IMG/VR virus record: IMGVR_UViG_3300042311_000738
Location: 1-20,076 of that record
Strand: one strand, 5' to 3'
Length of the DNA stretch: 20,076 bases
Source: a virus
Below are positions 383 to 20,076 of the stretch, one piece after another; position 1 is the stretch's first letter, and every line of letters begins with the position of its first letter. The position numbers and the translations under genes were made by a program. The notes under the pieces were generated by a model. That model was not told the DNA's origin and did not search any database. It saw nothing but the letters and a program-made list of their open reading frames with translations.

Positions 383-393
383 ACTTTTGGTTT

Positions 394-696: not shown

Positions 697-722
697 GTCT
701 TAATGTCTTTTGATTTATACTA

Positions 723-901: not shown

Positions 902-1067
902 ATTTCATGTGGTTGGTTATTACTCTTTTTACTAATTCATAAACGGCACTTTTACCGCCTATTTCCTCTACTTGCTTTGCGGAGAAAACAAAATGAAATC
1001 TGACGTTTTTTACTTCCGTTCTGTTTTCGAGAGGTTTTCTACCTGCGTTGGATTTTTTGCTTTCCAT
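891..1067 (-). CDS. Small basic protein, possibly ribbon-helix-helix, 58 aa
   Basis: A 58-residue frame with a basic start (MESKKSNAGRKPLENRTEVK), a short strand (VRFHFVFS, about 22-29), and two likely helices (30-36 and 40-51). This is the size and order of a ribbon-helix-helix DNA-binding protein, but I cannot confirm the family. It overlaps the upstream 96-residue gene by one base (TAATG) and the downstream 51-residue gene by 11 bases. A small regulator inside the leftward operon would be consistent with this. Confidence 0.6.
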   Translation of the reverse strand: MESKKSNAGRKPLENRTEVKNVRFHFVFSAKQVEEIGGKSAVYELVKRVITNHMKYEN

Positions 1068-1357
1068 TACTTTTTGCTTTTTAAAAATGTTTCTAAATGG
1101 TTATGTAAATACTTCATGCTCAATAATTCAAACTCGTCATGAATAACTTCCGTCGCTATAAGCACTAATTCTTTGTAACTTAATTTGTTTAGGATTAATT
1201 CTGTGCAACGACTTTTGGAATAATGCCCTTGAAGTACTTGCCCGTACATATCCGTCATTAATTTAATCTTTTTGTCTTTCAGTTCGTCTTTAACGCTTTT
1301 GTCTACGTTAATAGCGTCCATGTAATTTTCTTTTGTGTGGTCGAATTTAAAGTCCAT
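1067..1357 (-). CDS. Hypothetical protein, 96 aa
   Basis: An unrecognised 96-residue protein, helical and charged throughout, with a lysine-rich central part (KSVKDELKDKKIKLM, about 20-34) and a C-terminal helix pair rich in leucine. No metal-binding, nucleotide-binding or membrane motif is visible. It overlaps the exonuclease gene upstream by 11 bases and the 58-residue gene downstream by one base. It is thus translated within the recombination operon; a DNA-metabolism accessory role is possible but unproven. Confidence 0.75.
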   Translation of the reverse strand: MDFKFDHTKENYMDAINVDKSVKDELKDKKIKLMTDMYGQVLQGHYSKSRCTELILNKLSYKELVLIATEVIHDEFELLSMKYLHNHLETFLKSKK

Positions 1358-1925
1358 TTTTGTCTGTATTAAGGTTATTATAAATTTCTAATCGTTTGAG
1401 GAATTTTTGAAAAAAATACTCAATCTGTTGCATACTAAAAACGAATTTTTGCACGTCGTTTTCAAGTATTACTGTTATCATGCCGTATTTTATATCTACG
1501 CCGTTTTCAATTAATGCCTTAACATAGGCACTAATCTGCAAAACATAATCCCCAAGCCACTCCTCTTTTTTTGGTTTGGAAGATCCTTTAAAATCGTTAA
1601 GAATTAAAAATCCGTTCACGTCAAAGACTATGTCGTAACGTCCGTAATATTTATGCTTTTCAGATATTACAGATTTTTCTAACGAATGGCACTTGTACTG
1701 TTTTAAGTGGTATTCCAACGCTTTGTTTTCTATCGGGCGTCCAAGTTCGTAATAGTCTTTAACCTGCTTGTCGTATCCGTCTCCGCGAGACATTGCTTTT
1801 TGACGTATCTCTTGGGCTTCTTTTTCTCCAATGCTATCACGCCACTTTTTTAAGGCGTCTTGTCGTTCTTGCGGAACGGTCGCTTGAAGTATCTTTGTAA
1901 CGCTTGGATAAAATTTACCTTCCAT
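1347..1925 (-). CDS. PD-(D/E)XK exonuclease (MGME1/Cas4/RecB-like)
   Basis: This 192-residue protein starts with FYPSVTKIL (5-13), a signature of the MGME1-like branch of PD-(D/E)XK nucleases. A helical stretch carrying a glutamate- and basic-rich region follows. The catalytic core reads KYYGRYDIVFDV (92-103, D98) and then LILNDFKGSSKPK (107-119, D111 and K113 as the D-x-K pair). The QISAYVKAL helix (130-138, Q130 and Y134) is the family's motif IV. Such enzymes digest DNA ends to give single strands. In phages they pair with annealing proteins, and here a Sak4-type ATPase is about 1 kb downstream in the same operon. Length fits a stand-alone phage exonuclease. All key residues are present, so it is likely active. 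Confidence 0.82.
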   Translation of the reverse strand: MEGKFYPSVTKILQATVPQERQDALKKWRDSIGEKEAQEIRQKAMSRGDGYDKQVKDYYELGRPIENKALEYHLKQYKCHSLEKSVISEKHKYYGRYDIVFDVNGFLILNDFKGSSKPKKEEWLGDYVLQISAYVKALIENGVDIKYGMITVILENDVQKFVFSMQQIEYFFQKFLKRLEIYNNLNTDKNGL

Positions 1926-2268
1926 TTTTGGCTCTGTTACGTTTCAATAATTCAGCTCTTGTGATAGCCTCTAAATTTTCAATACTATCGTTTTTGTTGT
2001 CGCCGTCTTTATGGTATATCAAATAACCTTTTGGCAACTTCCCGTAGTGTTCTTCCCAAATCAATTTCGGACGCCTAACTCTTTCGTTTGCTCCTGTGTG
2101 GACGTAAGCACAATCGGTTTTAAACTTTTGTATTCCGCCTTTCCAACTTGGGTGATTTTCGCCTACAAATTGTCCTTTTTTAAATTCTGTTTCGGGACTT
2201 AAATGAATTCCTTTTTTGCCCTTATTCCAAGGCACCATTCCCAATAAAAACTTACCTAAATTTTTCAT
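1915..2268 (-). CDS. HNH endonuclease (HNH_3-like)
   Basis: A 117-residue protein with an N-terminal NUMOD-like DNA-binding repeat (PWNKGKKG and a second FKKG...HPSWKGG part, about 13-45) and a C-terminal HNH fold. W70 lies ahead of HYGKLPKGYLIYHKDGDN and then IENLEAIT. The usual paired H-H at the start of the HNH finger is Y-H here, so the first histidine is replaced. The later asparagines (N93 and the IENL asparagine) remain. Free-standing HNH genes of this type are common mobile passengers in phages, but this one overlaps its neighbours by 4 and 11 bases, so it is fully woven into the operon. Whether it cuts DNA with the changed residue is uncertain. Confidence 0.8.
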   Translation of the reverse strand: MKNLGKFLLGMVPWNKGKKGIHLSPETEFKKGQFVGENHPSWKGGIQKFKTDCAYVHTGANERVRRPKLIWEEHYGKLPKGYLIYHKDGDNKNDSIENLEAITRAELLKRNRAKNGR

Positions 2269-2411
2269 GATTTTCTATCTGTTTGATTAATGAATAAATA
2301 CAATTCTTTCCAATGGATTAATCCTACCAATCCTACGCAAACTCCTATAACCCAAAAAAACTCTGTGTGCATGGCTATTGTCAATAACACTAATGATATA
2401 CCTGTTTTCAT
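2265..2411 (-). CDS. Small membrane protein, 48 aa
   Basis: A 48-residue frame whose first 35 residues are almost wholly hydrophobic. MKTGISLVLLTIAMHTEFFW is followed by VIGVCVGLVGLI and then a charged tail (NQTDRKS). It probably spans the membrane once or twice in a short hairpin. It starts one base after the radC-like gene ends and overlaps the HNH gene by four bases (ATGA), so it is clearly part of the operon. No family is recognised. Small membrane proteins in phage early operons sometimes act in exclusion or host takeover, but nothing specific is visible here. Confidence 0.6.
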   Translation of the reverse strand: MKTGISLVLLTIAMHTEFFWVIGVCVGLVGLIHWKELYLFINQTDRKS

Positions 2412-2412
2412 A

Positions 2413-2850
2413 CTATAAAATATTAGCTTCGTCTTTAAATGAATAATAACTATTTGAGGTCAATATCAAATGATCTAAAACGTTCACTTCAAGAAGTCCT
2501 AATGCGTCTTGAATTTTCTTTGTAATACTTTCGTCTTGTGGGCTTGGTTTCAAATTACCGCTTGGGTGGTTATGTGCTAAAATAACGCCCGAACATAAAC
2601 TGTCTAAACAATACTTTGCTATAATCTTAATATCTACTACCGTCCCTGCAATACCGCCTTGACTTATTTTTGCGTACCCGACTGTCGTATTTGACCTGTC
2701 AACTAACAATATGAAAAAGCTTTCGTAAATCTCTATGTCGCTACCGTAATACTGACTAATCACTTGGTACGCATCTTTGCTTGACGTAATTTTCACTCTC
2801 GGAAAATCTGTCTGTGTTTTAGTTAATTGGAATAATGCTTGGTTGTTCAT
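2413..2850 (-). CDS. radC: RadC-like JAB/MPN-domain protein
   Basis: A 145-residue protein that is almost entirely a RadC-type JAB domain. The conserved glutamate is at E43, and the zinc-binding JAMM signature is HNHPSGNLKPSPQD (H93, H95, S103, D106), followed by the usual LDHLILT strand. It lacks the N-terminal helix-hairpin-helix region of chromosomal RadC, as is common for mobile-element copies. The full metal-binding set implies a metal-dependent hydrolase fold. The biochemical role of RadC is not settled, although these genes are frequent near phage and plasmid recombination and anti-restriction genes. Its start has the ATCATG context seen at many starts in this window. Confidence 0.88.
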   Translation of the reverse strand: MNNQALFQLTKTQTDFPRVKITSSKDAYQVISQYYGSDIEIYESFFILLVDRSNTTVGYAKISQGGIAGTVVDIKIIAKYCLDSLCSGVILAHNHPSGNLKPSPQDESITKKIQDALGLLEVNVLDHLILTSNSYYSFKDEANIL

Positions 2851-2865
2851 GATTTCTGTTTTTGA

Positions 2866-3072
2866 TTAATAATTTGCTATGTGTTTTTTGCCTGTCGTAA
2901 TGTCTACCCAAACGGTGTCTGCGTCTTGTTTTGAAATACGATTAATTCTTTCAATTTCTGCGTAACCTTTTTGGATTGCTTCTTCTTCGGTTTTGCCTAA
3001 TTTCAATGCGAAATTTTTGGCTGAATTGAACATTACTTGTTCTATTCTTGTCATGTCTTCAAATGCTTTCAT
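2866..3072 (-). CDS. Hypothetical protein, 68 aa
   Basis: A 68-residue protein with a long N-terminal helix (TRIEQVMFNSAKNFALKLGK, residues 8-27), a KTEEEAIQKGYAEIERI helix and a short basic end (TGKKHIANY). No recognised motif. It lies four bases after the first gene of the operon and 15 bases before the RadC-like gene, in a continuous leftward transcript. Confidence 0.7.
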   Translation of the reverse strand: MKAFEDMTRIEQVMFNSAKNFALKLGKTEEEAIQKGYAEIERINRISKQDADTVWVDITTGKKHIANY

Positions 3073-3076
3073 AATA

Positions 3077-3307
3077 CTAAAATTGGATTTCTAATTCAAA
3101 TTCTCTTAATCCCGACTGCGTCAATATATTTCTAACGTCTTCGGTCAATTCTAACATTTCGTCGTCAAATGCAAACTCGGGATTTAATACCCAACTATTT
3201 GACGCCGTTTGTTCAATACTTAAATCGAAAATGCTTTCTAATCTTGCGTCGCTCAAAATGTTTTGTGCTAAAACCGCTTCTCTTACTGATGTTTCTAAAT
3301 GTATCAT
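3077..3307 (-). CDS. Hypothetical acidic protein, first gene of leftward operon
   Basis: A strongly acidic 76-residue protein with many D and E residues (FAFDDEMLELTEDVRN, about 45-60). It has no cysteine and no membrane segment. It is the promoter-proximal gene of the leftward operon, starting about 27 bases after the -7 box at 3334-3341. Small acidic early phage proteins can act as DNA mimics or inhibitors, but nothing in the sequence proves this. No family is recognised. Confidence 0.7.
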   Translation of the reverse strand: MIHLETSVREAVLAQNILSDARLESIFDLSIEQTASNSWVLNPEFAFDDEMLELTEDVRNILTQSGLREFELEIQF

Positions 3308-8897: not shown

Positions 8898-9196
8898 GAC
8901 CAACAACATTATTAGCGAGAATACCAAGCATAGAAAATATGACGTCTTCAAACGGTAACGACGTCCCTAATCAATTCATAATTAGAGGAGAGTATAACGG
9001 AGAGAATTATACCATATTTAAGTCTTACAATAGCATTATAGTTATGAAAGTAGGCAATAAGGTTTTTATTGACAAAGCATATTGGGATTATTCACGAACA
9101 ACAGCAAAATATCGTAATCAGTTTTTAAGAGAAACGACAGCCGAAACAGAGTTAAATTTGAAATTAGGTAGATATAAATTTGCAGTATTGAATTAA
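8894..9196 (+). CDS. Hypothetical protein, 100 aa
   Basis: A 100-residue protein with repeated short strands (QFIIRGEYNGENYTIFKSYN, then SIIVMKVGNKVFIDK) and a C-terminal helix with strand. It looks like a small beta-barrel or beta-sandwich domain. Proteins of this look recur in Bacteroidota phage early regions, but I know of no assigned function. It overlaps its upstream neighbour by four bases. Confidence 0.7.
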   Translation: MRPTTLLARIPSIENMTSSNGNDVPNQFIIRGEYNGENYTIFKSYNSIIVMKVGNKVFIDKAYWDYSRTTAKYRNQFLRETTAETELNLKLGRYKFAVLN

Positions 9197-9209
9197 ATTA
9201 TTAGTTTTG
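9180..9209 (+). promoter_or_regulatory. Candidate promoter for the XRE gene
   Basis: TTG (9180-9182), a 19-base spacer and TAGTTTTG (9202-9209), a match to TAnnTTTG. The next gene starts 22 bases downstream. The -33 part lies inside the end of the preceding gene, so this would give the XRE gene its own control. It has no CTTGCGTA motif. Confidence 0.35.
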
Positions 9210-9231
9210 TTAAGAATTAACAATTTAAGAC

Positions 9232-9456
9232 ATGGGAATTTTTAAAGAAATAATCAAAAAGTCGGGCGTTTCACAAACCGAAATAGCAAAGCGTTTGGAT
9301 TATACCGAAGCCAATTTGTCGTATTTAAAGAACAGAAATTCGGCGTTCATTAAAAAGGTTGAGGACGCAATGAAAGAATTGCAGATAGAAACTATTGAAG
9401 CCGTAGAGGGCGGTTTGGTTTTTTCAATTAAACTTCAAGAAAATGGCACCGACTAA
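9232..9456 (+). CDS. XRE-family helix-turn-helix regulator (Cro-like)
   Basis: A 74-residue protein with a classic XRE helix-turn-helix at residues 12-33 (GVSQTEIAKRLDYTEANLSY), where Q15, A19 and S30 occupy the usual positions. A short C-terminal strand region follows. Small proteins of this kind are Cro- or repressor-like regulators binding operator DNA. It may control one of the promoters here, possibly the switch to the genes after the terminator. It overlaps the next gene by 14 bases. Confidence 0.8.
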   Translation: MGIFKEIIKKSGVSQTEIAKRLDYTEANLSYLKNRNSAFIKKVEDAMKELQIETIEAVEGGLVFSIKLQENGTD

Positions 9457-9625
9457 ACAAGGAGCGGATTTTATCCAAACCATACATGAAGAAAATAAAA
9501 AAGCAAAGCTTCAAGCCAAAACGGTTTTGAAACAAGCCAAAAAAGACGAGCGTATTAAAATTAAGAACGGTTACAGATACGTTCAGTTAAATAAAGATAC
9601 GTGGGTTTTAAGAAAACAAGAGTAG
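9443..9625 (+). CDS. Small basic hypothetical protein
   Basis: A 60-residue, very lysine-rich protein (EENKKAKLQAKTVLKQAKKD, about 16-35) with a long basic helix and a C-terminal strand pair. It may bind nucleic acid through its charge, but no family is recognised. It overlaps the XRE gene by 14 bases, and its stop codon touches the intrinsic terminator that ends this block. Confidence 0.65.
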   Translation: MAPTKQGADFIQTIHEENKKAKLQAKTVLKQAKKDERIKIKNGYRYVQLNKDTWVLRKQE

Positions 9626-9655
9626 CCGTTTTGCAAACGCAAGGCGGTTTTTCTT
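9625..9655 (+). terminator. Intrinsic terminator
   Basis: A stem of 10 base pairs (GCCGTTTTGC at 9625-9634 with GCAAGGCGGT at 9639-9648, three G-T pairs), a 4-base AAAC loop and a T-rich tail. This is the clearest terminator in the window and separates the early small-gene block from the modification and late genes. Confidence 0.75.
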
Positions 9656-9685
9656 TGCCTATAATTTAAAAAAACAATAATTTAC

Positions 9686-9693
9686 TATATTTG
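9686..9693 (+). promoter_or_regulatory. -7 box of a downstream promoter
   Basis: A perfect TATATTTG at 9686-9693, 22 bases before the ATG at 9716 and just after a terminator. No TTG lies 17-23 bases upstream, so the -33 part is weak or absent. The promoter may need an activator, which would fit delayed expression of the genes behind it. Confidence 0.5.
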
Positions 9694-9715
9694 TATTCAA
9701 ATTAAAACTATTTAT

Positions 9716-10255
9716 ATGAAAGCTCAATTAATCGAAATTAGCAAAATCAAAGAGAATGAAAATAATCCTCGTATAATTAGACACGAGAAATTTTTAAAAT
9801 TGGTGCAATCCGTAAAGGACTTTCCCGAAATGCTTGAATTAAGACCTATTGTAGTCAATAAAGACATGATAATCATTGGTGGGAATATGCGCTACAATGC
9901 TTGTTTAGAAGCAGGAATTGAAAAGGTGCCTGTCGTTATAGCAAACCTTACTCCCGAACAGGAAAAAGAATTTATGATTAAGGACAATGTCTCGGGTGGA
10001 GAGTGGGATTATTCTGCTTTAAAAATAGATTGGGGAACTAATCCTTTGGACGAGTGGGGTGTGGATAATTGGAATGTTACGCCTACAAGTTTTGAGCCTA
10101 ACCTTTTGCCAAACACAAACCATGAAGAAATTACGGCAGAGCAAATCGAAAAAACGAACGAGAAACTAAATGATAGATACTCGAATGTAGAACAAAATTT
10201 AAGAACAGTACTTTGTCCTCACTGTTTGGAAGAATTTGAAATAGAGAATAAGTAA
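9716..10255 (+). CDS. ParB/Srx-fold protein, methyltransferase-associated type
   Basis: A 179-residue protein with an N-terminal ParB/Srx domain. NENNPRIIRHEKF (14-26) is the ParB box I equivalent and IIGGNMRYNACLEAG (53-67) is box II. The IKDNVSGGEWDY stretch (88-99) and the DEWGVDNWN end (111-119) are as found in ParB domains attached to phage DNA methylases. The C-terminus ends in a single CPHC pair (167-170) and carries no methylase. A separate methyltransferase gene is about 0.9 kb downstream. The likely role is DNA recognition for, or coupling to, phage DNA modification. Some ParB-fold proteins cut DNA or hydrolyse CTP, so other roles are possible. Confidence 0.8.
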   Translation: MKAQLIEISKIKENENNPRIIRHEKFLKLVQSVKDFPEMLELRPIVVNKDMIIIGGNMRYNACLEAGIEKVPVVIANLTPEQEKEFMIKDNVSGGEWDYSALKIDWGTNPLDEWGVDNWNVTPTSFEPNLLPNTNHEEITAEQIEKTNEKLNDRYSNVEQNLRTVLCPHCLEEFEIENK

Positions 10256-10548
10256 TGAATTACGATAAGTATTTAAAACTAAAAGAAATCGTTGCGGATT
10301 TTCACTGGCAAGAGGCTAAAACTATGCGAGACAAACCGCATAGCTATAATGTAAAAGCAAAAAACCAAAACAAAGAAGCCTTTGAATATTTGGCAAATGC
10401 TATAGACGAATACGGTAAGCCAAAAAAATTCTTTAGTACGACGTTTTACTATTTAGAAATAGACGAATATCAGTATTGGTCGTGCGACCCTAAAGGAAAG
10501 TGTGCTTTAATAAACAGAGCCTTAATCAAAGACCACAATTATAATTAA
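10255..10548 (+). CDS. Hypothetical protein in the modification cassette
   Basis: A 97-residue protein with a basic first half and an aromatic-rich second half (KFFSTTFYYLEIDEYQYWSC, about 59-78, then DPKGKC). No recognised family. Its start overlaps the ParB gene stop by one base, so it is made together with the ParB protein. It probably works in the same cassette; the aromatic patch could bind a base or sugar, but that is speculation. Confidence 0.75.
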   Translation: MNYDKYLKLKEIVADFHWQEAKTMRDKPHSYNVKAKNQNKEAFEYLANAIDEYGKPKKFFSTTFYYLEIDEYQYWSCDPKGKCALINRALIKDHNYN

Positions 10549-10554
10549 AGCGTT

Positions 10555-11157
10555 ATGGAAATAGTAATACAAGCAGTAAGGAAAAGACAAAACAACGTGG
10601 ATATTTTGACTAAAAAATTACCTAACGCAAAAGTTGTTTGGGACGAGAATTTAGAGGGCGGTTTCAAAACGTTTACTAAAATCTTAAAAATACCTTTCAC
10701 AGGTTACAGACTACATTTGCAAGACGATGCTATGGTGCCTAACGATTTGGAATGCTATTTACATGAAGTAGAAACTATAATGCAAGACAACGATATTCAC
10801 GTTATGAGTGTCTACGTTCCGCAAAGAAAATTCTTAAAAGAGCAATACGAAAAAGGCGTAAGGTTTTCAGAGTTCCCAAACTTTTTAACTATGGTGGCTT
10901 GTGTTTTTTCTAAAGAAGTAACAGACAAAATGATAGCGTATTTGGATATTGCCAAAGAAAATAAACATGATGATAGCTTTGTTCAAGAATTTCTATCAAA
11001 GCACAAAATGAAAGCATACGTTCACTATCCGTCTTTGGTACAGCATAGCATAGTATTGAAATCAGTAATGAAAAATCCAAACACAGATAAAAGACAAAGT
11101 TTCTGTTTTGACAAAAATTTTATATCTAACTACTTAAAAAATCAAGATCATGAATAA
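10555..11157 (+). CDS. Putative GT-A fold glycosyltransferase
   Basis: A 200-residue protein with features of small GT-A glycosyltransferases. The N-terminus is MEIVIQAVRKRQNNVDILTK, and a LHLQDDAMVPNDL block (54-66) is the DxD-like nucleotide-sugar and metal site. An NKHDDSFVQEFL helix (136-147) and the AYVHYPSLVQH segment (154-164), typical near the C-terminus of this group, follow. It has no signal peptide or membrane span, so it acts in the cytoplasm. Placed between a ParB protein and a DNA methyltransferase, a plausible acceptor is modified phage DNA; protein or surface glycosylation cannot be ruled out. It overlaps the methyltransferase gene by eight bases. Confidence 0.6.
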   Translation: MEIVIQAVRKRQNNVDILTKKLPNAKVVWDENLEGGFKTFTKILKIPFTGYRLHLQDDAMVPNDLECYLHEVETIMQDNDIHVMSVYVPQRKFLKEQYEKGVRFSEFPNFLTMVACVFSKEVTDKMIAYLDIAKENKHDDSFVQEFLSKHKMKAYVHYPSLVQHSIVLKSVMKNPNTDKRQSFCFDKNFISNYLKNQDHE

Positions 11158-11701
11158 GGCTTACAACAAAGACATTATGGATTGGGACGAGTTCCCTCAC
11201 TACGATATAGTATGGACAGACCCGCCTTGGGAAGAAAGAATGGTTAAATGGTTTCAAGGCAAATGTAAAAAAGAAACGGGGTTGGAAGTAAACCATACCA
11301 TACGAGAAATTATAGGCCACTTGGCAAAATTAAGCAACCCGACAAAGCCTGTTGTAATAGAGTACGGAATTAAAGGGTACGACTTGGTAATAGAAATAAT
11401 GGAAGCGTTCGGGCATAAACATATCTCGACAAATAAAAGAGTTTCTGCTATGTGTCCTGTTTATGTAGTAATGGTTTTCAATTCCGATTTAAAAATTCCC
11501 GAATTGAAAGACCCTTATTTGATAACAGAATTCTTTAAAGAAAACGACTTTAAAACGGCGTTTGACCCTTTCGCAGGTATAGGAGCGACGGCAAAGGCTG
11601 TTATGAAATCAGGAGCGTATTACATAGGTTCCGAATTAAACCCGAAAAGATACGAAAGACTTAAAAAGATTATAGATGAAAGTAATCAAAAAGGTTTCTA
11701 A
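11150..11701 (+). CDS. DNA methyltransferase, beta-class order (probable N6-adenine)
   Basis: A 183-residue protein with motif IV first, YDIVWTDPPWEER (18-30), and motif I later, FDPFAGIGATAKAVMKSGA (138-156), followed by IGSELNPKRYERL (159-171). This is the beta-class order of amino-methyltransferases; DPPW fits adenine N6 better than cytosine N4. It is short, with no clear separate target-recognition domain, so specificity may come from a partner such as the ParB protein. It overlaps the glycosyltransferase gene by eight bases and the GNAT gene by 26 bases, so the three are probably made as a set. It could be a relative recruited to another base modification rather than plain methylation. 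Confidence 0.82.
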   Translation: MNKAYNKDIMDWDEFPHYDIVWTDPPWEERMVKWFQGKCKKETGLEVNHTIREIIGHLAKLSNPTKPVVIEYGIKGYDLVIEIMEAFGHKHISTNKRVSAMCPVYVVMVFNSDLKIPELKDPYLITEFFKENDFKTAFDPFAGIGATAKAVMKSGAYYIGSELNPKRYERLKKIIDESNQKGF

Positions 11702-12053
11702 AGAAGACGTAGAGGAACTTACTTTGGGAGCGTATAGACATAAATTGATTTTAAACGGCAATTACGACCTGTACGCTTTGTATCTAAATAACGTTCCTGT
11801 TTCTATTGGTGCTATTAAATATACGGGGATTAAAGCAACATTAACTTTTGCCTATACTCCTAAAGAACATCAAAAGAAAGGATACCATAAACTCTTAATG
11901 AATTACAGAATGAACGAATTGAAAACAAAAGGAATACAAAGAGTAGAGGTTACCTGCTTAAAAGCGTCTGTCGGAAACTATTTAAGAGAGGGAGCGAAAG
12001 TATTAAAACAATATAAACATGGAGGAGCGTTAGTGGTATATGAAAGTATTTAA
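11676..12053 (+). CDS. GNAT-family acetyltransferase
   Basis: A 125-residue GNAT. The central strand ATLTFAY (54-60) leads into the acetyl-CoA loop and helix TPKEHQKKGYHKLLMNY (61-77), with G69 as the key glycine and H71 where a glycine or alanine is more usual. QRVEVTCLKASVGNYLREGA (88-107) is the second half. It uses an acyl-CoA donor in the cytoplasm. The strongest clue to substrate is context: it overlaps a DNA methyltransferase by 26 bases and the PP-loop enzyme by 14. Phage Mu Mom is a GNAT-fold enzyme that modifies adenine in phage DNA, so a nucleobase acceptor is plausible, though a protein acceptor is equally possible by sequence alone. Confidence 0.75.
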   Translation: MKVIKKVSKEDVEELTLGAYRHKLILNGNYDLYALYLNNVPVSIGAIKYTGIKATLTFAYTPKEHQKKGYHKLLMNYRMNELKTKGIQRVEVTCLKASVGNYLREGAKVLKQYKHGGALVVYESI

Positions 12054-13236
12054 AAAGACAACAGTATTAGAGGAAGCCAAACATAGAATAAACTATTTGT
12101 TTGACGAGTTCCCAAACGTAATAGTCGGATTTTCGGGCGGTAAGGATAGCACCGTTTGTTTGAATTTGACTTTGGAAGTGGCAAGAGAAAGAAATCGTTT
12201 GCCGTTAAAAGTAATGTGGATAGACCAAGAAGCAGAGTGGCAAGGTACCGCTGATTATTGCGAAGACGTATTTAATAATCCCGACATAGAACCTATGTGG
12301 TTTCAAATGCCTATGAAGTGGTTTAATAACGTGTCTTCGTACAATAGCTTTATAAATATTTGGGACGAGGAAAATCCTAACAAATGGATACGAGAGAAGT
12401 CTCCAATATCCATAAAAGAAAATAAGTACTTGGATTTTGGGTTTCACGAATTGTTTGAGAACATACTTAAACATCACTTTCCAAATCAAAAGACATGCTA
12501 TATTGCAGGAGTTCGTGCGGAAGAAAGTCCTCGACGTAAATTGGCTATGACAAGAGATTTGACGTACAAAGACATTACTTGGGGGAAAAGGCTTTACGTT
12601 CAATACGACCATTACACTTTTTATCCTATTTATGACTGGTCGTACACAGACGTTTGGAAAGCAATACACGAGCATAATTGGGACTACAATAAAGTGTACG
12701 ACGAAATGTATAGACATGGAGTATCCTTAAACGAAATGCGAATATCTAATTTGCACCATGAAACAGCAATCCAAAGTATGCTTATCGTACAGGAGATAGA
12801 ACCTAAAACGTGGGAGAAAATATCTGCAAGGTACGACGGTGTGAATACATTAAAGCACTTACAAAGAGAGAGTTTTCAATGCCCGAAAGAACTTCCGTAT
12901 ATGTTTATAGATTGGGAAGAATATGCTTTGTATTTAATAGAAAATCTTATATTAGAGGAAAAATACAAAAAGTTAATGCACTCGAAAATTGAGCAGTTGA
13001 CTTTGGTATATACCGACAAACAAATTAGAGAGGATTTTTTCAAGGTAATAATCAAAACAGTATTGAGTACAGATTGGGATTTGACTAAATTAAAGAATTG
13101 GACGGAAGGCAATAAAGACGCCTACATATACAGAGAGTATAAAAAGGGCAACGTCAAAGATTATATGCTAAACCCGACAAAGTATATTACAAACGAACAG
13201 AGAGAAGAACTTAAAAACAAAATCAACAATGGATAA
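12040..13236 (+). CDS. PAPS-reductase-like PP-loop enzyme (IbrA/DndC-like)
   Basis: A 398-residue protein of the phosphoadenosine phosphosulfate reductase family. The PP-loop is VGFSGGKDSTVCLNL (29-43), followed by KVMWIDQEAEW (57-67). The GVRAEESPRRKL motif (157-168) and the DWSYTDVWKAIHEHNWDYNK stretch (199-218) are both family features. A long C-terminal domain of the DUF3440/IbrA type follows. PP-loop enzymes adenylate their target; DndC uses this in DNA phosphorothioation, and IbrA is known from prophages. No iron-sulfur cysteine cluster is obvious (C40, C74, C153 and C281 are scattered). It overlaps the ParB gene behind it by eight bases, a pairing known for IbrA-IbrB. The substrate is unknown. 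Confidence 0.82.
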   Translation: MKVFKKTTVLEEAKHRINYLFDEFPNVIVGFSGGKDSTVCLNLTLEVARERNRLPLKVMWIDQEAEWQGTADYCEDVFNNPDIEPMWFQMPMKWFNNVSSYNSFINIWDEENPNKWIREKSPISIKENKYLDFGFHELFENILKHHFPNQKTCYIAGVRAEESPRRKLAMTRDLTYKDITWGKRLYVQYDHYTFYPIYDWSYTDVWKAIHEHNWDYNKVYDEMYRHGVSLNEMRISNLHHETAIQSMLIVQEIEPKTWEKISARYDGVNTLKHLQRESFQCPKELPYMFIDWEEYALYLIENLILEEKYKKLMHSKIEQLTLVYTDKQIREDFFKVIIKTVLSTDWDLTKLKNWTEGNKDAYIYREYKKGNVKDYMLNPTKYITNEQREELKNKINNG

Positions 13237-13951
13237 GCAAACACTATTAGATCAATTAAAGCAGTCGATTGTAGGCAACGAAAACCCTATTGGCTATATA
13301 GAAGAAATCAAAGAATTGTTAAACGACAACAGTCCTTTGAAATCACAACCCGTAAACAGAATTAAGTGGGTGCCTATCGAACAGGTTAGTCCAAACGACT
13401 ACAACCCTAATTCAGTAGCCAAAATCGAAATGGGCTTATTATATACCTCAATAAAGCACGACGGGTACACACAGCCTGTCGTTACCATTTGGGACGAGGA
13501 AATGCAAAAGTATGTGATTGTGGACGGCTTCCATAGATACTTTACGTGTTTGACAAATGCAGACATACGAGAACGTAATCATGGATACCTGCCAATAGTC
13601 GTAATCGAGAAAGACATAAACGATAGAATGGCTTCGACCGTTCGCCACAATAGAGCAAGAGGTAAGCACTCAATTACAGGAATGTCTAACATGGTATTTG
13701 AAATGTTACAGAACGGGTGGAAAGATGAAGAAATTTGCAACGAATTAGGTATGCAACCCGAAGAAGTTTTGAAGCTGAAACACATAACGGGATTTAGTAA
13801 ACTGTTCCAAAGTGTTGAATACAAAAAAGCGTGGGAAGAAAGTAATCAATTACGATTGAGAAAAAAATACCTCGAAGAACAAAACGGCAACGATAAAGCG
13901 ATTGAGAACGACAAACCCGACGGAAGACGTTACAAAGTATCTAAACAATAA
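13229..13951 (+). CDS. ParB/Srx-fold protein, IbrB-like
   Basis: A 240-residue protein. The ParB/Srx domain spans about residues 44-150: DYNPNSVAKIEMGLL (57-71), the active-site-like IVDGFHRYF (97-105) and VRHNRARGKHSI (138-149). A helix-turn-helix part follows (QNGWKDEEICNELGMQPEEV, 161-180), then a charged tail. Its gene overlaps the PP-loop enzyme gene by eight bases. Adjacent PAPS-reductase-like and ParB-like genes define the IbrA-IbrB pair of prophages, reported as regulators of prophage gene expression in Escherichia coli. DndB and DndC form a loosely similar pair. Function here is probably tied to its partner and to DNA binding, but is unproven. Confidence 0.82.
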   Translation: MDKQTLLDQLKQSIVGNENPIGYIEEIKELLNDNSPLKSQPVNRIKWVPIEQVSPNDYNPNSVAKIEMGLLYTSIKHDGYTQPVVTIWDEEMQKYVIVDGFHRYFTCLTNADIRERNHGYLPIVVIEKDINDRMASTVRHNRARGKHSITGMSNMVFEMLQNGWKDEEICNELGMQPEEVLKLKHITGFSKLFQSVEYKKAWEESNQLRLRKKYLEEQNGNDKAIENDKPDGRRYKVSKQ

Positions 13952-13955
13952 TATC

Positions 13956-14366
13956 ATGGCGTACGACAAAGAAAAGATATACGAACAGGCGTTAGTCGCA
14001 ATAGAGGAGAACAAACTATTCTTTATTGAGGACGTGGTTTCATATTTGCCCTGTGCAAAGGCTACATTTTACGAGTTCTTTCCAACAAAATCAGACGAAT
14101 TGAACACTATAAAAGAAGCGTTAGAAAAAAACAAAACGGCAATTAAGGTTTCTATGAGAGCAAAATGGTATAAGTCGGACAACCCGTCTTTACAAATTGC
14201 TTTAATGAAAATGATAGCGACGGAAGACGAAGCACATAGATTAAACGGAAGTCGTTTTGTCGGGGACGTTACTTCGGGCGGAGAGCCTATTCAAACAGTC
14301 ATGATTAACTTGGGAAGTGGAATTAATCCCGAACAAGACGAAGACGACGATGAAGTTACTGATTAA
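13956..14366 (+). CDS. terS: Terminase small subunit
   Basis: A 136-residue protein. An N-terminal helix-turn-helix (about 5-45, FIEDVVSYLPCAKATFYEFF) recognises the packaging site. A helical middle part follows (KTAIKVSMRAKWYKSDNPSL), then a strand-rich segment and an acidic C-terminal tail (EQDEDDDEVTD) for contact with the large subunit. Size and order fit phage small terminases, and it lies directly before the large terminase with a 17-base overlap. The start at 13956 has the ATCATG context; an earlier in-frame ATG at 13902 lies inside the upstream gene and is less likely. Confidence 0.78.
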   Translation: MAYDKEKIYEQALVAIEENKLFFIEDVVSYLPCAKATFYEFFPTKSDELNTIKEALEKNKTAIKVSMRAKWYKSDNPSLQIALMKMIATEDEAHRLNGSRFVGDVTSGGEPIQTVMINLGSGINPEQDEDDDEVTD

Positions 14367-15648
14367 ACAAGAACATGCTACGTTTTACCTAAAGGACAAC
14401 GTTACCGAAGAAGTGCTGTACGGCGGTGCAGCGGGTGGAGGTAAGAGTGCTTTCGGTTGTATGTGGTTATTAGAACAAGCCATTAAATATCCAAATAGTC
14501 GTTGGCTAATGGGACGTTCAAAACTTCACACGTTAAAGGCAACTACGTTGAAGACATTTTTTGAGGTCGCTTCTCAAATTGGAGTAACAAAAGAGTATAG
14601 ATACAACGGGGGGAATAACACGTTTTACTTTAAGAACGGAAGCGAAATCATATTAAAGGATTTATTCTTTTACCCGTCAGACCCTAATTTTGACAGTTTG
14701 GGTTCTCTCGAAATCACAGGTGCTTTTATTGACGAATGTAATCAGTTGACTTACAAGGCGTGGCAGATTGTGAAATCCCGTATCCGTTATAAGTTAAGAG
14801 ACTATAACCTAATACCTAAAATGCTTGGGACGTGTAACCCTGCAAAGAATTGGACGTACAAAGAATTCTATCAGCCGTCCAAAACCAAATCCCTTTTACC
14901 TTACCGAAGATTTATACAGGCGTTGCCAACAGATAATCCTTTCCTGCACCCAAGTTATTTGCAGTCATTACTTCGTTTGGATAAGAACTCACGCGAGCGT
15001 TTATACTACGGGAATTGGGAATACGACGACGACCCTGCAACGTTAATAGATAACGACAGTATAACAGATTACTTCAACCCGTCAAATGTAAAGGCAGAGG
15101 GTATGAAGTATTTAACTATTGACGTGGCACGTAAGGGGAAAGATAAAACAGTATTTAGAGTGTGGCATGGTTGGCTTTGCACACACAGATACTCAATGGA
15201 TAAGAGCCTTGTTACCGAAGTGGTTAAAAAAGCAAAGGATATTCAAATGAAACACAATATCGCTTCGTCGTTTACTATTGCAGATGAAGACGGTGTCGGT
15301 GGCGGTGTAGTTGACTTTTTACGTTGTAAGGGATTTGTCAATAATTCAAGTGCTTTAAATGGAGAGAATTACGACAACCTTAAAAGCCAATGCTCAATTA
15401 AAATGGCTACCAAGATCGTGCGACGTGAATGCGGAGAAATTATAGCGGAAGAACACGTCAAGGATATTACAGCCGAAGAAATGGAACAGGTCAAAATAAA
15501 AGATATTGACAAAGACGGTAGGCTTGGTGTGGTTTCAAAGGATAAAGTTAAAGAGAATATTGGACGTTCGCCCGATGAGTGGGATAGTATCATGATGAGA
15601 ATGTACTTCGATATTCAAAAAAGTTACGAAACAAGGATTACTATTTAA
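14350..15648 (+). CDS. terL: Terminase large subunit
   Basis: A 432-residue protein starting at 14350. The Walker A is LYGGAAGGGKSAFG (23-36), Walker B GAFIDECNQL (124-133), and the coupling motif GTCNPAKNW (160-168). The C-terminal nuclease domain has acidic residues at D258 (LTIDVARKG), D312/D314 (IADEDGVGG) and D412 (SPDEWDSIMMRMYF). ATPase and nuclease parts are thus both present; the enzyme cuts the concatemer and drives DNA into the prohead. An in-frame ATG at 14317 would extend it further into terS; the later start gives the usual N-terminus. It follows the modification cassette, so modified DNA would be its substrate. Confidence 0.92.
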   Translation: MKLLIKQEHATFYLKDNVTEEVLYGGAAGGGKSAFGCMWLLEQAIKYPNSRWLMGRSKLHTLKATTLKTFFEVASQIGVTKEYRYNGGNNTFYFKNGSEIILKDLFFYPSDPNFDSLGSLEITGAFIDECNQLTYKAWQIVKSRIRYKLRDYNLIPKMLGTCNPAKNWTYKEFYQPSKTKSLLPYRRFIQALPTDNPFLHPSYLQSLLRLDKNSRERLYYGNWEYDDDPATLIDNDSITDYFNPSNVKAEGMKYLTIDVARKGKDKTVFRVWHGWLCTHRYSMDKSLVTEVVKKAKDIQMKHNIASSFTIADEDGVGGGVVDFLRCKGFVNNSSALNGENYDNLKSQCSIKMATKIVRRECGEIIAEEHVKDITAEEMEQVKIKDIDKDGRLGVVSKDKVKENIGRSPDEWDSIMMRMYFDIQKSYETRITI

Positions 15649-15669
15649 AAAAATTACTACCTTTGGACT

Positions 15670-16230
15670 ATGGAGAGTATCACAATTTTACAGTACGCAA
15701 AACTCACAGACACAACTGTTTACGATGCGGTGTTACCGTTCTTAAAGCCAAAGAATAAAATGCTTGACGGTAAGATTGACTTCAATATTTTAACGTATTC
15801 AGAGGTAAGAAAATGCCTTGAATTAATGAAGAAAATGGATACGTGGGATAAGCAAAAAGACCTGTTTGAATTGGCTTACGGAATAAAAACCGACGACAAA
15901 AAGAAAACAAAGACGTTTTGGGACTGTCCTATTGACGAGTATTTTTCAGCGTTAAATTACTTGACCGTTTCTTTTAAGAAATTATTGGAGCGTGAAGCAC
16001 GTTTGTTGAAATCAATAAACCACAACGCAGACCTTTGGGAACAGGCAGGTGGGAAAAGACTTGACAAATTTAGTAACTTAATGCCTTTGCTACAATTAGG
16101 AGAGATATACGGGATTTATCCTTACGATTTAAAGGACAAACCATACAACGAGATACTTACTCTATTGGTGGCACACAAAGAAAAAGCAGAGATTAATTAC
16201 GAATACGATAGGCTTCGTACTAAAACATAA
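15670..16230 (+). CDS. Phage structural/assembly protein, tail-chaperone-like (tentative)
   Basis: A 186-residue helical protein. Its C-terminal segment (LMPLLQLGEIYGIYPYDLKD, about 137-156, then KPYNEILTLLVAHKEKAE) resembles the repeated helical layout of tail assembly chaperone-type proteins, but the match is weak. A portal gene would normally follow terL; this protein is far too small and shows none of its features. It lies 21 bases after terL and six before the next gene. Function tentative. Confidence 0.6.
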   Translation: MESITILQYAKLTDTTVYDAVLPFLKPKNKMLDGKIDFNILTYSEVRKCLELMKKMDTWDKQKDLFELAYGIKTDDKKKTKTFWDCPIDEYFSALNYLTVSFKKLLEREARLLKSINHNADLWEQAGGKRLDKFSNLMPLLQLGEIYGIYPYDLKDKPYNEILTLLVAHKEKAEINYEYDRLRTKT

Positions 16231-16236
16231 AGTAAC

Positions 16237-16695
16237 ATGCAGGATTTTGTTAGAATATTACAGGCGTACTGTATAAATGCTGATATCGAATATCACTACG
16301 GACGCAAAGCAAATTTAAACTTATTAAAGGCGAATTTAGACAACGAAAAGATTTATTGTCTTCACGAGCCGTCGCCAAGAAAGGCTGAAATGAATAGCAA
16401 CTCTACTCGGGTTGCTTCTTACGTTTATAGTGGAATGTTCTTTTTGGTAAAACAGTCTACGTTGGATATGCCTTATTTTGACGAGTTCAATAGCAACGAC
16501 GCCAATTCAAAATACGTTAAGAACATAGCACCTTTGTTGGGTGCATACGAGGCTATGGCTAATAAGTTTGGGTGCAAGGGATTTGATATATTGCAATTTG
16601 ACTGTATCGACGTAGTAAATGTATTGGATACCAACAAAGACGGTCTTTTGGTAACGTACTCTATTAGAGTAAGAGCGGATTATCTATTTACTTAA
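16237..16695 (+). CDS. Hypothetical structural-region protein
   Basis: A 152-residue alpha/beta protein (MQDFVRILQAYCINADIEYH at the start, strands LLVTYSIRVRADYLFT at the end). Not recognised with confidence. It lies between the possible chaperone and the gp10-like protein, with gaps of six and two bases, a slot often filled by a tail terminator or head-tail joining protein. The mixed fold and length (about 150) would suit a tail terminator, but this is inference from place and size. Confidence 0.6.
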   Translation: MQDFVRILQAYCINADIEYHYGRKANLNLLKANLDNEKIYCLHEPSPRKAEMNSNSTRVASYVYSGMFFLVKQSTLDMPYFDEFNSNDANSKYVKNIAPLLGAYEAMANKFGCKGFDILQFDCIDVVNVLDTNKDGLLVTYSIRVRADYLFT

Positions 16696-16697
16696 TC

Positions 16698-17162
16698 ATG
16701 CCTAACCAAATTTTAATAGAGGAATTTGAAGCAATTAAAACAGAAATAATTGCTTTGTACGACGCCAAAGGTATGAGGGCAAGTGGAAACTTTGCTAATT
16801 CATTACAGGTAATACCGTCGGGAGAAAACTCTGTTCGATTAATTGGAGACGCATACGCCGTACAATTAGAGCAAGGGAGAAAGGCAGGAGCGTTCCCGCC
16901 TATCAAAGCGATTGAGAAATGGATTATGGATAAAGGGATATTCGCTAACGTATTGAATGAAATCAAACTTTCGTCCCTTGCCTATTTGATTGCTCGTAAA
17001 ATAGCAAAAGAGGGGTGGGGTAGACAAAACAAAGGTGGCGTCAATTTAATTAGTTCTGTAATCACAGACCAACGTATCCAACAGATAATAGACAAAGTCG
17101 GTGCGGTCGAGACAATAAAGTTTAGTAATGAATTAATCAATATGCTTCAAAGCATAGAGTAA
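16698..17162 (+). CDS. HK97 gp10-like tail completion/neck protein
   Basis: A 154-residue protein. The central block YAVQLEQGRKAGAFPPIKAI (53-72) with EKWIMDKGI (73-81) and SLAYLIARKIAKEGWGR (92-108) follows the pattern of the HK97 gp10-like family (conserved arginine-glycine-proline segment, then an alanine-rich helix). These proteins join head to tail or finish tail assembly. It has the ATCATG start context and is two bases after its neighbour. Family likely, precise role inferred. Confidence 0.68.
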   Translation: MPNQILIEEFEAIKTEIIALYDAKGMRASGNFANSLQVIPSGENSVRLIGDAYAVQLEQGRKAGAFPPIKAIEKWIMDKGIFANVLNEIKLSSLAYLIARKIAKEGWGRQNKGGVNLISSVITDQRIQQIIDKVGAVETIKFSNELINMLQSIE

Positions 17163-17173
17163 AAATATAAGAT

Positions 17174-18313
17174 ATGGCTATAATTTTCAACCAAGAAATA
17201 TCACAGAGCAAAATACTATTTGCTTACAATAATCACATAGTGCGTTTTCAATCGGATACGCCTACTCTATTGCCTATGTTTGCTGAAATAACAATAGGCA
17301 CAAATACTTTAAAACTATTCCCAAACCCGTCGGGAGAGTTCTATTACAATTTTTCGGACATAGTCAAAACTATTATGAATATAGACAACTTCAAAGACGA
17401 TTTGAACATGGATATTCAAAACATAGGTTTTGTCTATATATGGACTAATAAGATATATTGGAATACAATAGTGTCTTTCAAAGTTGTTTTAGAAGATTTA
17501 AGCGAAGAAACCGCTACGAGGGATTATACTTTTATATCGGGAGTACTACAATTAGAAGACTATAAAAAACGATACCCGTTGTTTTTAGACAAGAACAATA
17601 CTTTAATGTTAAGCCCTTTCGTGAAAGACAATAATCAAAAAGCGTACGTTAGATATTGGGAAGGATACCCGTTTGATATTACGGTGTACAGTTCTCCGAA
17701 TGCGTCAGTAATGACTTTAACCAATATGACTAACCTTTTGTTTTATCAGTTCGTTACAAGCAACGTAGTACGTTTAGCGTTTTCGGACGGTACGACTACA
17801 CTTACGATAGACGATTATGTAGCAACACAGTACGGATACAACGAAATGAAAATACAGGCTGACGGTACGACGTTCTATTTTGATTTAATCAAAGAAGAAA
17901 ACAACTGCGGTACTTACCTTAAATTTAGAAATAGTCTTGGCGGTTGGAATTATTGGCTATTCCCAAAAGGACACAGAAACAGAAACGCAAAGGATATTGG
18001 GGAATTAGAAAACGACTACGAAAATATTGAGGACACAGTTTCTCCGACCGTTCAAATTGGTAGACGTACTTCGGACAGCGTTACTTTAACCACAGACATA
18101 CTGAATGAAAACGATATGGTTTTAATGGAAGAACTAATTGAAAGTCCAAAGATATATATGTTTACAGGGACGCCTTTTTCACAAAACGAATATAGCGATT
18201 GGATAGAGGTTTCTTTAAAAACAACAGATTTTAGAATACAAAATGCAAGAACTAATTTGAACAGATTTAACTTCCAATTTGACTTGCCGTTAAGAAACAA
18301 TGTAACACTTTAA
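17174..18313 (+). CDS. Putative tail/baseplate protein
   Basis: A 379-residue, strand-rich protein without a signal peptide or membrane span. Short beta segments dominate. A CGTYLKFRNSLGGWNYWLF block (236-254) and a C-terminal domain (LTTDILNENDMVLMEELIES, then WIEVSLKTTDFRIQNARTNL) resemble Bacteroidota phage tail or distal-tail-like proteins. It is followed after three bases by a second large tail-like gene. This supports a tail-tip or baseplate role, though I cannot name the family with certainty. Confidence 0.65.
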   Translation: MAIIFNQEISQSKILFAYNNHIVRFQSDTPTLLPMFAEITIGTNTLKLFPNPSGEFYYNFSDIVKTIMNIDNFKDDLNMDIQNIGFVYIWTNKIYWNTIVSFKVVLEDLSEETATRDYTFISGVLQLEDYKKRYPLFLDKNNTLMLSPFVKDNNQKAYVRYWEGYPFDITVYSSPNASVMTLTNMTNLLFYQFVTSNVVRLAFSDGTTTLTIDDYVATQYGYNEMKIQADGTTFYFDLIKEENNCGTYLKFRNSLGGWNYWLFPKGHRNRNAKDIGELENDYENIEDTVSPTVQIGRRTSDSVTLTTDILNENDMVLMEELIESPKIYMFTGTPFSQNEYSDWIEVSLKTTDFRIQNARTNLNRFNFQFDLPLRNNVTL

Positions 18314-18316
18314 GCC

Positions 18317-20076
18317 ATGAGTTATAAACTGTATTTGGACGGGTTAGATATGGAGATTAAAGACATTAATCGTTTGGCACAAACCAAGCAGGTTAATAAC
18401 ATAGTCAATCTACATACTCGTCAAACAAACGCTACCAATAATTTCGCTTTACCTAAAACGGCAGACAATATTAAGAAACTTAAAGCGTTAGGTATTATTG
18501 GGAATTTGAGTGATAAGCCGTATTCCAAAGTGAGTGCTGATTTATTGGATACCATTACAGGAGAGTGGCTAATTTACAAAGGGTGGGCTATCATAAATGA
18601 AACGAGTACCGACTTCAAAATATCTTTGTACGACGGTGTTATTGATCTATACAAAAAAATAGATAATAAGAAGCTGACGGAATTAGACCTTTCGGGATTA
18701 GACCATTTGAAAACTCTTGCAAATATAGTAGCGAGTTGGCAGAACAATTTGCCTTATATGTATATTTTAGCGGATTATAACGGGAAGCTTTATTCGGGAT
18801 TAGACGTAAATGCTGATTATCAAATACCCTCTGCCCGTATGTCTTACATTTGGGATAGGTTGCACCAATACGCAGGCTTTACATATTCGGGTAGTGTATT
18901 CCAAACAGAGAAGTTTTTGAATTGGTTTATGACTTATCCTAAACCAATTACAGACGCTTCAATTCAAGTGATACCAATTACGGCACAGAGTTGTCAAATT
19001 GAATACTTTACAAATGCAAATGGAGAGACTTTTCAAAATGTTCTTTACTTACCTCAAACCATACCGCCTAACATATACGGAAACTTAAACCCACAAGGAG
19101 CGTTTCTCGTTCAAACGTCGGGAAGTTTTAGAGTTAAAATTACGGGTGTGGAAACTAACCTTGTTAATAACCAAGTATTTAACATGGTTAACTATATCGT
19201 TTATGATAGTGCTAATACAGTAATTCAACAAGGAGATATTGACGGTCAAGCAAACGAAGTTATTTTTTTAAGTTTAAACGCAGGGGAAAGATTAGTATTT
19301 TGGGATATGACCTATGGCGGACCAGGTACTTATATGGTTACAAGTCAACAGGTTTTTATTGACTATGTTGACGGATACGTTGCTAACTTTAACGAAGCAT
19401 TAATTGACTTTACGGCGTCGGAATTCTATAAAGAAGTACTTAATCATTTTGCTTTAATTCCGTTTAAAGAAAAATACTCTAACCATATCGTCTATAAAAA
19501 ACTGTCAGAGGTTATGCAGGAAACAGGGATATTGGATTGGAGCGATAAAAATCCTGTTAAATTGACGGAGAAATATATTGTAGGCTCTTACGGTCAAGCA
19601 AATGAATTTACATATAAGTACAACCAAGAGGGTTTTACTCACAATAACGGCGTTTTAGATATTGCAAACAAAAACCTTAAAGAGAAAAATATAGCCATAG
19701 CGTCAAGATTTTATACTCCCGATAATAAGTATTCTGCTATTGAAAACAATTCAGTACCCGTTATGCCTATTTGGGAAAAGGAATTGAAAGACGACGGGAC
19801 GATAGAATACAAAGACTTATCGGGTAGATACTACACGCATAGGGCGGAGAATGTTCCATTAATCACGTTCACTTTGCGTTCGGAATTGTTAAACGTGTCT
19901 CAATTAGTTGGAGGGCCTGTACCTTTTTCTTCTTATTTTAGATTAAAATGGAGTGAAATACTATTAGACAATTACGAAGATATTAGTAAGGTATTAAACA
20001 CGTCAAAAATTGTAGAGGCTAATTTGTTTTTAAGCAGTAAGGACGTTGCGGATTTTGACTTTCAAAGACTAATTTA
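18317..20076 (+). CDS. Large putative tail/baseplate protein (3' end cut off)
   Basis: An open frame of 586 codons that runs off the right edge with two bases of the next codon left over (TA, so a stop or a tyrosine). It starts at the ATG at 18317, three bases after the preceding stop. The N-terminus is MSYKLYLDGLDMEIKDINRL, and the body is strand-rich with aromatic patches, as in phage tail-hub or receptor-region proteins. No catalytic motif is seen. Large size, position and its pairing with the 379-residue gene support a tail/baseplate role. I checked the start and end regions of the frame by hand; the middle was not translated base by base. Confidence 0.65.
   Translation, partial: MSYKLYLDGLDMEIKDINRLAQTKQVNNIVNLHTRQTNATNNFALPKTADNIKKLKALGIIGNLSDKPYSKVSADLLDTITGEWLIYKGWAIINETSTDFKISLYDGVIDLYKKIDNKKLTELDLSGLDHLKTLANIVASWQNNLPYMYILADYNGKLYSGLDVNADYQIPSARMSYIWDRLHQYAGFTYSGSVFQTEKFLNWFMTYPKPITDASIQVIPITAQSCQIEYFTNANGETFQNVLYLPQTIPPNIYGNLNPQGAFLVQTSGSFRVKITGVETNLVNNQVFNMVNYIVYDSANTVIQQGDIDGQANEVIFLSLNAGERLVFWDMTYGGPGTYMVTSQQVFIDYVDGYVANFNEALIDFTASEFYKEVLNHFALIPFKEKYSNHIVYKKLSEVMQETGILDWSDKNPVKLTEKYIVGSYGQANEFTYKYNQEGFTHNNGVLDIANKNLKEKNIAIASRFYTPDNKYSAIENNSVPVMPIWEKELKDDGTIEYKDLSGRYYTHRAENVPLITFTLRSELLNVSQLVGGPVPFSSYFRLKWSEILLDNYEDISKVLNTSKIVEANLFLSSKDVADFDFQRLI

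Follow-up and report, generated by a model that had tools for sequence, protein, structure and literature searches.

A constant core with an exchangeable tailoring slot: a candidate DNA hypermodification island ahead of the phage terminase

Seven closely packed genes directly in front of a phage terminase raise the question of what they might make together, and of how far they belong together at all. They lie in IMG/VR virus record IMGVR_UViG_3300042311_000738, positions 1 to 20,076 (here the window, exactly 20,076 bases), where open reading frames (ORFs) P1 to P7 occupy 9716-13951 on one strand. An earlier sequence-only reading had taken the seven for one compound DNA-modification pathway. 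All seven of its ORFs are present, and the enzyme types it named agree with Pfam, PHROG and fold evidence (the GNAT assignment being weak for P5 itself). Their organization, as revealed by comparison with other viral loci, is that of a conserved core of four genes, encoding the ParB-fold protein ParB1 (P1), P2, IbrA (P6) and IbrB (P7), with P3, P4 and P5 filling the interval from P2 to IbrA, a slot whose content is exchangeable. Such an island is probably a post-replicative machine for hypermodification of phage DNA, in which the core stays constant and the tailoring enzymes of the slot are swapped.

The cassette is compact. Adjacent genes overlap by 1, 8, 26, 14 and 8 bases, as the 1-26 base overlaps of the sequence-only reading would have it except at the P2/P3 junction, which is a 6-base gap; the last 8-base overlap joins IbrA to IbrB. 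The claim of a single operon ahead of the terminase also stands, the ATG of the small terminase gene (terS) at 13956 following P7 by 4 bases. The cassette is not a chance arrangement, because tens of diverged viral contigs repeat its gene order and its core genes have dN/dS of 0.05-0.11 against their nearest relative (dS is near saturation, and the ratios are rough).

Viral contigs were gathered with IbrA (27 loci) and, to avoid circularity, with P2 alone (77 new loci). The order ParB-P2-slot-IbrA-IbrB is found in most loci of both sets; in the IbrA-found contigs P1, P2, IbrA and IbrB are mostly constant and the P2-to-IbrA interval varies. Full-length IbrA is near P2 in 69 of the 77 P2-found loci, with a ParB gene also beside it in 68, and the remainder are mostly cut by contig ends or have a broken IbrA. 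Among 68 loci with plus-strand copies of P2 and IbrA, 65 have P2 ahead of IbrA and 59 have a ParB gene directly ahead of P2; ParB follows IbrA in all 68 of the P2-found loci, with a median overlap of about 10 bases. A variant group (L021-L026) carries ParB1 after IbrB rather than before P2. Of 40 dereplicated loci with room downstream, at least 34 encode a terminase in the first long unannotated ORF past IbrA/IbrB. Homologues scattered without conserved order, which the sequence-only reading had named as evidence against itself, are thus not what a search for the gene set elsewhere reveals.

The slot is best seen against the nearest relative, contig 3300034167_000571 (L017), in which IbrA and the terminase are 87-88% identical to those of the window and P1, P2, IbrA and IbrB are 74-87% identical to their counterparts. 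DNA of the two aligns at 9178-10545 and 12040-18945 with nothing between; the first block stops at the last sense codon of P2 and the second starts at the first base of IbrA. The L017 slot holds a glycosyltransferase, a small ParB, an FkbM-type methyltransferase, another glycosyltransferase (48% identical to P3) and a GNAT (32% identical to P5). Across 46 dereplicated loci, protein distances correlate with those of IbrA for ParB1 (r 0.81), IbrB (0.71) and P2 (0.62), and less for slot glycosyltransferases (0.31) and methyltransferases (0.26). Slot content, by the coarse classes glycosyltransferase, methyltransferase and other, differs in 37 of 57 IbrA pairs more than 65% identical, one pair of them at 94% identity. 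The core is seen beside many other slot combinations, a single slot gene, or none. One set compound pathway is therefore not what the locus encodes: three of its seven genes are interchangeable.

By sequence family, P6 and P7 are phage versions of the IbrA/IbrB pair. IbrA matches Pfam PAPS_reduct (7e-17) and DUF3440 (2.6e-6, above cut-off), and its conserved residues include the ATP-binding SGGKDS, a GxRxxES..R motif and others, with no cysteine among them: no cysteine is conserved above 62% in 87 sequences, and none is invariant in 16 diverse ones. Against solved structures its profile finds flavin adenine dinucleotide (FAD) synthase (3e-10) and CysD (1e-9), then reductases of 3'-phosphoadenosine 5'-phosphosulfate (PAPS) (2e-5). 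FAD synthase and CysD are enzymes that transfer AMP. Identity of IbrA as a PAPS reductase (CysH) is disfavored, a conserved catalytic cysteine being absent from both the 87 and the 16 aligned IbrA sequences. Adenylation of a DNA group is favored as its activity because its PP-loop comes without a cysteine and its profile is nearest FAD synthase and CysD.

P2 has no family in Pfam, PHROGs or NCBIfam, yet an alignment of 19 sequences has 11 invariant residues. Its predicted structure (predicted local distance difference test, pLDDT, 88) has no clear PDB match; in fold searches the best Foldseek E is 0.3 and VIA Z is at most 4.0 over unrelated proteins, and no fold is claimed. Many loci carry P2 as a fusion with a class I methyltransferase, and in L183:5644-6288 (also L184 and L185) an AdoMet-decarboxylase-like domain and P2 form a single protein. 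Small P2-like proteins also occur in Bacteroidales and other bacteria (L199-L233), in scattered contexts with no obvious constant neighbor. A 715-amino-acid Bacteroidales protein (L215:4129-6276) begins with GmrSD_N (2e-34) and ends in a P2 domain. Proteins of the GmrSD type are nucleases that depend on modification, and this one may read modified DNA; it is counted in favor of DNA hypermodification.

In the slot of the window, P3 has a weak family match (phrog_854 'glucosyltransferase', 2e-6) and a model (pLDDT 90) with a predicted GT-A fold near COLGALT1 (Foldseek 9e-7), GnT-I and Mimivirus R655 (VIA Z 15.0; root-mean-square deviation 3.1 over 168 residues). Residues R11, D30, D57, D58, D140 and H164 are invariant. 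On this model P3 is a GT-A glycosyltransferase, having the fold with its metal-binding acidic motif; Pfam matches to ATP19 and DUF7795 were dropped as below cut-off. P4 is classed from motif order and profile as a beta-class DNA amino-methyltransferase: DPPW near residue 24 precedes DPFAGIG near residue 139, and the motifs are preserved in relatives. At 183 amino acids it is too short for the usual target-recognition domain. The cluster of P5 comprises 22 slot genes, members of which pass the cut-off and match Acetyltransf_1/7 at about 1e-5. No Mom family is among the cassette matches in Pfam, PHROGs or NCBIfam. P3 and P5 searched singly against annotated phages (tblastn), and P3 alone against viral contigs, gave no match, being too diverged.

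Slot enzymes elsewhere are typical of base or sugar decoration, and this too is counted in favor of DNA hypermodification. With near-identical contigs included in the counts, there are 44 beta-class methyltransferases, 37 P3-type glycosyltransferases, 22 GNATs and 7 GT2-like glycosyltransferases, with rarer genes for a 170-amino-acid family (8), extra ParB (4), FkbM-type methyltransferase (3), class I methyltransferase (3) and AdoMet decarboxylase (1); the slot is empty in 17 loci. In the 170-amino-acid family an H-x-D is invariant and another histidine follows after about 45 residues, the pattern of 2-oxoglutarate/iron dioxygenases, and Pfam and PDB profile searches give no credible match for it. 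In L143:6826-7359 and seven similar loci this dioxygenase-like protein is always beside a slot glycosyltransferase, which recalls hydroxylate-then-glycosylate pathways. A 250-amino-acid family, first read as a short IbrA, was rejected as such: its sequences are GT2-like with a DDD motif, and clustering was misled by L010:2854-4788, where a GT2-like glycosyltransferase and IbrA form a single 644-amino-acid ORF (separate genes in the near relative L008). AdoMet decarboxylase (Pfam 1.2e-23; MESHFTFHAFPE and YSC motifs intact) is encoded beside P2 in a group of contigs (L002-L005, L007-L016, L020, L027, L187, L188, L190 and L198), mostly in the interval from ParB1 to P2 and in L198 just after P2. 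This suggests an amine- or decarboxylated-SAM-derived group (SAM, S-adenosylmethionine) in those loci; the window has no such gene.

How might such an island work? ParB-fold P1 and IbrB, taken as NTPases from their fold, would bring IbrA to DNA, presumably just before packaging. IbrA would adenylate a DNA group, most likely a base oxygen, by lysidine-type chemistry, and a small substituent would then be fixed at the adenylated group; the activated atom and its replacement are guesses. P2, which elsewhere is fused to SAM-using enzymes, may couple the core to the tailoring enzymes, in the window phage the amino-methyltransferase P4, the GT-A glycosyltransferase P3 and the putative GNAT acyltransferase P5. 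Their decoration would shield phage DNA from host nucleases, and a slot swap would alter it, allowing escape from nucleases that recognize the old one. DNA is the favored target because of the ParB fold, the DNA-type amino-methyltransferase and the place before the large terminase gene (TerL). A fuller joint version is offered only tentatively and may well not hold as a whole: the core would install a common activated DNA group by adenylation, interchangeable modules would add different sugars, methyl or acyl groups to it, giving DNA something like 'serotypes', P2 would serve as a novel adaptor in the tailoring of modified DNA, and the AdoMet-decarboxylase loci would use decarboxylated SAM or an amine as the substituent.

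Several points weigh against DNA hypermodification as the function. The island is accessory: of 42 relatives of the terminase whose upstream DNA is long enough to judge, just one carries it. P2 is without a solved relative, its profile finding no credible match in the PDB, and bacterial P2 is mostly found without IbrA (32 of 35 loci). Glycosyltransferase and GNAT folds act on many substrates, and we know of no experiment showing modified DNA in any island-bearing phage. E. coli IbrAB reportedly activates prophage eib genes (Sandt et al. 2002) and is not known for DNA modification.

In a different reading, IbrA and IbrB would regulate phage gene expression and the glycosyltransferase, methyltransferase and GNAT genes would be unrelated morons gathered at the site. 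Product notes and a cited title describe E. coli IbrAB as a prophage-gene activator, and variable slot content fits as well; slot genes are, however, nearly always of modification type and overlap the core, P2 is fused with SAM-using domains, and random morons should be less uniform, which makes this account very unlikely. Alternatively, the slot genes could be independent anti-restriction genes parked in the core operon with no chemical link to it. An empty slot or a single slot gene would suit such parking, as would the P4-like beta-class methyltransferases in related phages without IbrA. Similar kinds of slot enzyme nevertheless recur beside the core across diverged loci (IbrA falls into 45 clusters at 70% identity), exchange limits fall exactly at core gene ends, and the glycosyltransferase and IbrA of L010 are one ORF; parked genes are rated as distinctly unlikely.

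The target might also be something other than DNA (tRNA, the nucleotide pool, a host protein or a surface glycan), with the ParB-fold proteins as small-molecule kinases or NTPases. GT-A and GNAT enzymes together with a sugar methyltransferase (the FkbM type of L017) would suit glycan tailoring, the glycosyltransferase run of Microbacterium phage Leaf (below) is related to polysaccharide enzymes, and one of the NCBIfam matches of ParB1, a weak one (0.029), is to NF053625, which models an ADP-dependent serine kinase. Set against these are the two or three ParB-fold proteins that share an operon with a DNA-type amino-methyltransferase, and the place before the terminase in many phages, so that a non-DNA target is considered fairly unlikely. 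Sulfur modification of DNA, phosphorothioate-like or as a thio-base, would make IbrA a DndC analogue, and IbrA does belong to the DndC PP-loop family (TIGR03183 1.6e-8; PADLOC DndC 2.9e-11). The PAPS-reductase-like PP-loop enzyme of the sequence-only reading is indeed IbrA, and the link to sulfur that it raised is unlikely: sulfur modification and PAPS reduction are disfavored because IbrA has no conserved cysteine and resembles adenylyltransferases, whereas DndC has three cysteines that bind a 4Fe-4S cluster plus a further dyad (PMC10853773). Neither dndD, dndE nor a desulfurase is among the seven cassette genes, and this explanation is the most improbable of those weighed.

Among described systems, those of Dnd/Ssp phosphorothioation likewise combine a PP-loop enzyme and a ParB-superfamily protein (DndB) in one operon, but IbrA lacks the conserved cysteines of DndC (4Fe-4S and sulfur-transfer dyad), and Pfam, NCBIfam and PADLOC find no DndD, DndE, SspB or SspC among the seven cassette genes. 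A ParB-like partner in base modification has a precedent in the Dpd system for 7-deazaguanine in DNA, where DpdA, which inserts the base, has the ParB-like ATPase DpdB as its partner (PMC12839542); the seven cassette genes include no family of the tRNA-guanine transglycosylase type (DpdA), and have a PP-loop enzyme instead. P6 and P7 are clear members of the IbrA/IbrB pair of E. coli and many phages (phrog_2302, phrog_2159, DUF3440), here within a larger island with ParB1, P2 and tailoring enzymes. The E. coli ibrAB work is said to describe only eib gene activation.

The sequence-only reading knew of no described pathway with exactly this set, but the combination is not unique: Microbacterium phage Hendrix (Rogerhendrixvirus) has a nearly identical gene set in similar order. 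One end of its genome carries two glycosyltransferases, a P2-methyltransferase, a GNAT and IbrA, while TerL and three ParB genes lie at the opposite end; Leaf, also a Rogerhendrixvirus, has a similar genome end with more glycosyltransferases (for both phages, the glycosyltransferase assignment rests on first recruitment and record annotation, the later profile already containing them). In these phages of actinobacterial hosts the annotated methyltransferase is not P4-type and is probably fused to P2, stand-alone P2 is absent and glycosyltransferases are more numerous. The P2 domain is marginal (E 2e-4 in Hendrix gp156, 5e-5 in Leaf), and gp156 is probably a P2-methyltransferase fusion. In Leaf (L118:1381-4257) GNAT and IbrA are preceded by a run of four glycosyltransferase-like genes, of which one is Stealth-like, two are Gly_transf_sug and one is P3-type. 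Reduced islands occur in mycobacteriophage Gadjet (ParB-IbrA-ParB before TerL) and in Arthrobacter phage Laroye and Bacillus phage 035JT001, these last two including a methyltransferase. Pairings of IbrA and ParB-fold partners are found in Flavobacterium, Streptococcus, Faecalibacterium, Rhizobium and Escherichia phages; Flavobacterium phage FCL-2 has the IbrA/IbrB pair alone, which its authors treated only as possible virulence factors (PMC4541368).

The IbrA/IbrB pair and elaborate phage DNA modification were already known, and an earlier computational survey by Iyer et al. 2013 (NAR 41:7635) may include relatives of the island. That survey reportedly predicted phage DNA-modification systems with lysidine-like pyrimidines and SAM-derived modifications, which the PP-loop enzyme and, in some loci, the AdoMet decarboxylase would fit. 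A literature search, which did not cover Iyer et al. 2013, found no account of the gene set or of P2, and none of a division into core and slot or of the exchange of slots.

Table 1. Features of the cassette and the adjoining terminase genes in the window.
Feature	Positions	Strand	Evidence
Terminator-like hairpin, T-rich tail	9624..9658	+	directly before cassette
Probable promoter with Bacteroidota-type TATATTTG box at 9686-9693	9670..9695	+	
P1, ParB-fold protein, core; box GGNMRYNACLEAG	9716..10255	+	Pfam ParB_N 1.3e-8; phrog_620 5e-26; PDB Spo0J 6e-5
P2, small core protein, 97 amino acids; [FE]AK[TS]M..xPH ... YW ... INR motifs	10255..10548	+	
P3, predicted GT-A-fold glycosyltransferase, slot; DD at residues 57-58	10555..11157	+	predicted structure
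P4, putative beta-class amino-methyltransferase, slot	11150..11701	+	Pfam N6_N4_Mtase 2.9e-7, above cut-off
P5, putative GNAT-fold acyltransferase, slot	11676..12053	+	Pfam Acetyltransf_10 1.8e-4, below cut-off (22.0 vs 23.6)
P6, IbrA, PP-loop enzyme (SGGKDS) with DUF3440 region, core	12040..13236	+	phrog_2302 1e-84
P7, IbrB, ParB-fold partner of IbrA, core; box DGFHRY	13229..13951	+	phrog_2159 2e-73
Small terminase subunit (terS), by position	13956..14366	+	adjoins P7, overlaps TerL; 86% identical in L017
Large terminase subunit (TerL)	14350..15648	+	Pfam Terminase_3 4e-14; phrog_2 4e-31

Signals ahead of the cassette are of common types: hairpins of terminator type number 4 in the region against 4.3 in shuffles, and TAnnTTTG occurs 39 times against 29.6 expected. 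Neither being above chance, it is conservation that speaks for the hairpin and the promoter block. By eye, L017 has a hairpin of different sequence at the equivalent place, and the 26-base promoter block (aaaaacaataatttactatatttgta in the window, aaaaacaataattaactatatttgta in L017) has 1 difference in 26, in flanking DNA about 71% identical.

Genes of the window run leftward over about 1-3307 and rightward in the remainder, and recognizable neighbor products include RadC, HNH, PD-(D/E)XK, NinB, NinG and the large terminase. The terminase region matches Cellulophaga phage phi10:1 and Flavobacterium phage 11b at DNA level. From the neighbor genes, Terminase_3 and this DNA similarity, the window is from a tailed phage, probably of a Bacteroidota host, and incomplete in this record. 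TerS has no family match in Pfam or PHROGs (a ResIII Pfam match was dropped as below cut-off). In 15670-18313, neither of the two ORFs tested downstream of TerL (15670 and 17174) matches a Pfam family, and portal and capsid genes were not recognized there. A pre-terS hot spot of other modification genes was considered and rejected, 41 of the 42 terminase relatives having no ParB, beta-class methyltransferase or IbrA within 3.5 kb upstream of TerL.

In summary, IbrA and IbrB are common phage genes to which annotation has given the names PAPS reductase, partition protein or prophage co-activator. The conserved island assigns them a function that can be tested and, in P2, a partner that had been lacking. 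Cultured phages that bear the island exist, and DNA hypermodification can thus be tested directly on virion DNA. If it holds, a DNA-modification platform with a decoration that changes through gene exchange would be common to phages infecting at least Bacteroidota and Actinomycetota. The escape of phage DNA from restriction, and the response of modification-dependent nucleases to it, could then be seen in a new light.

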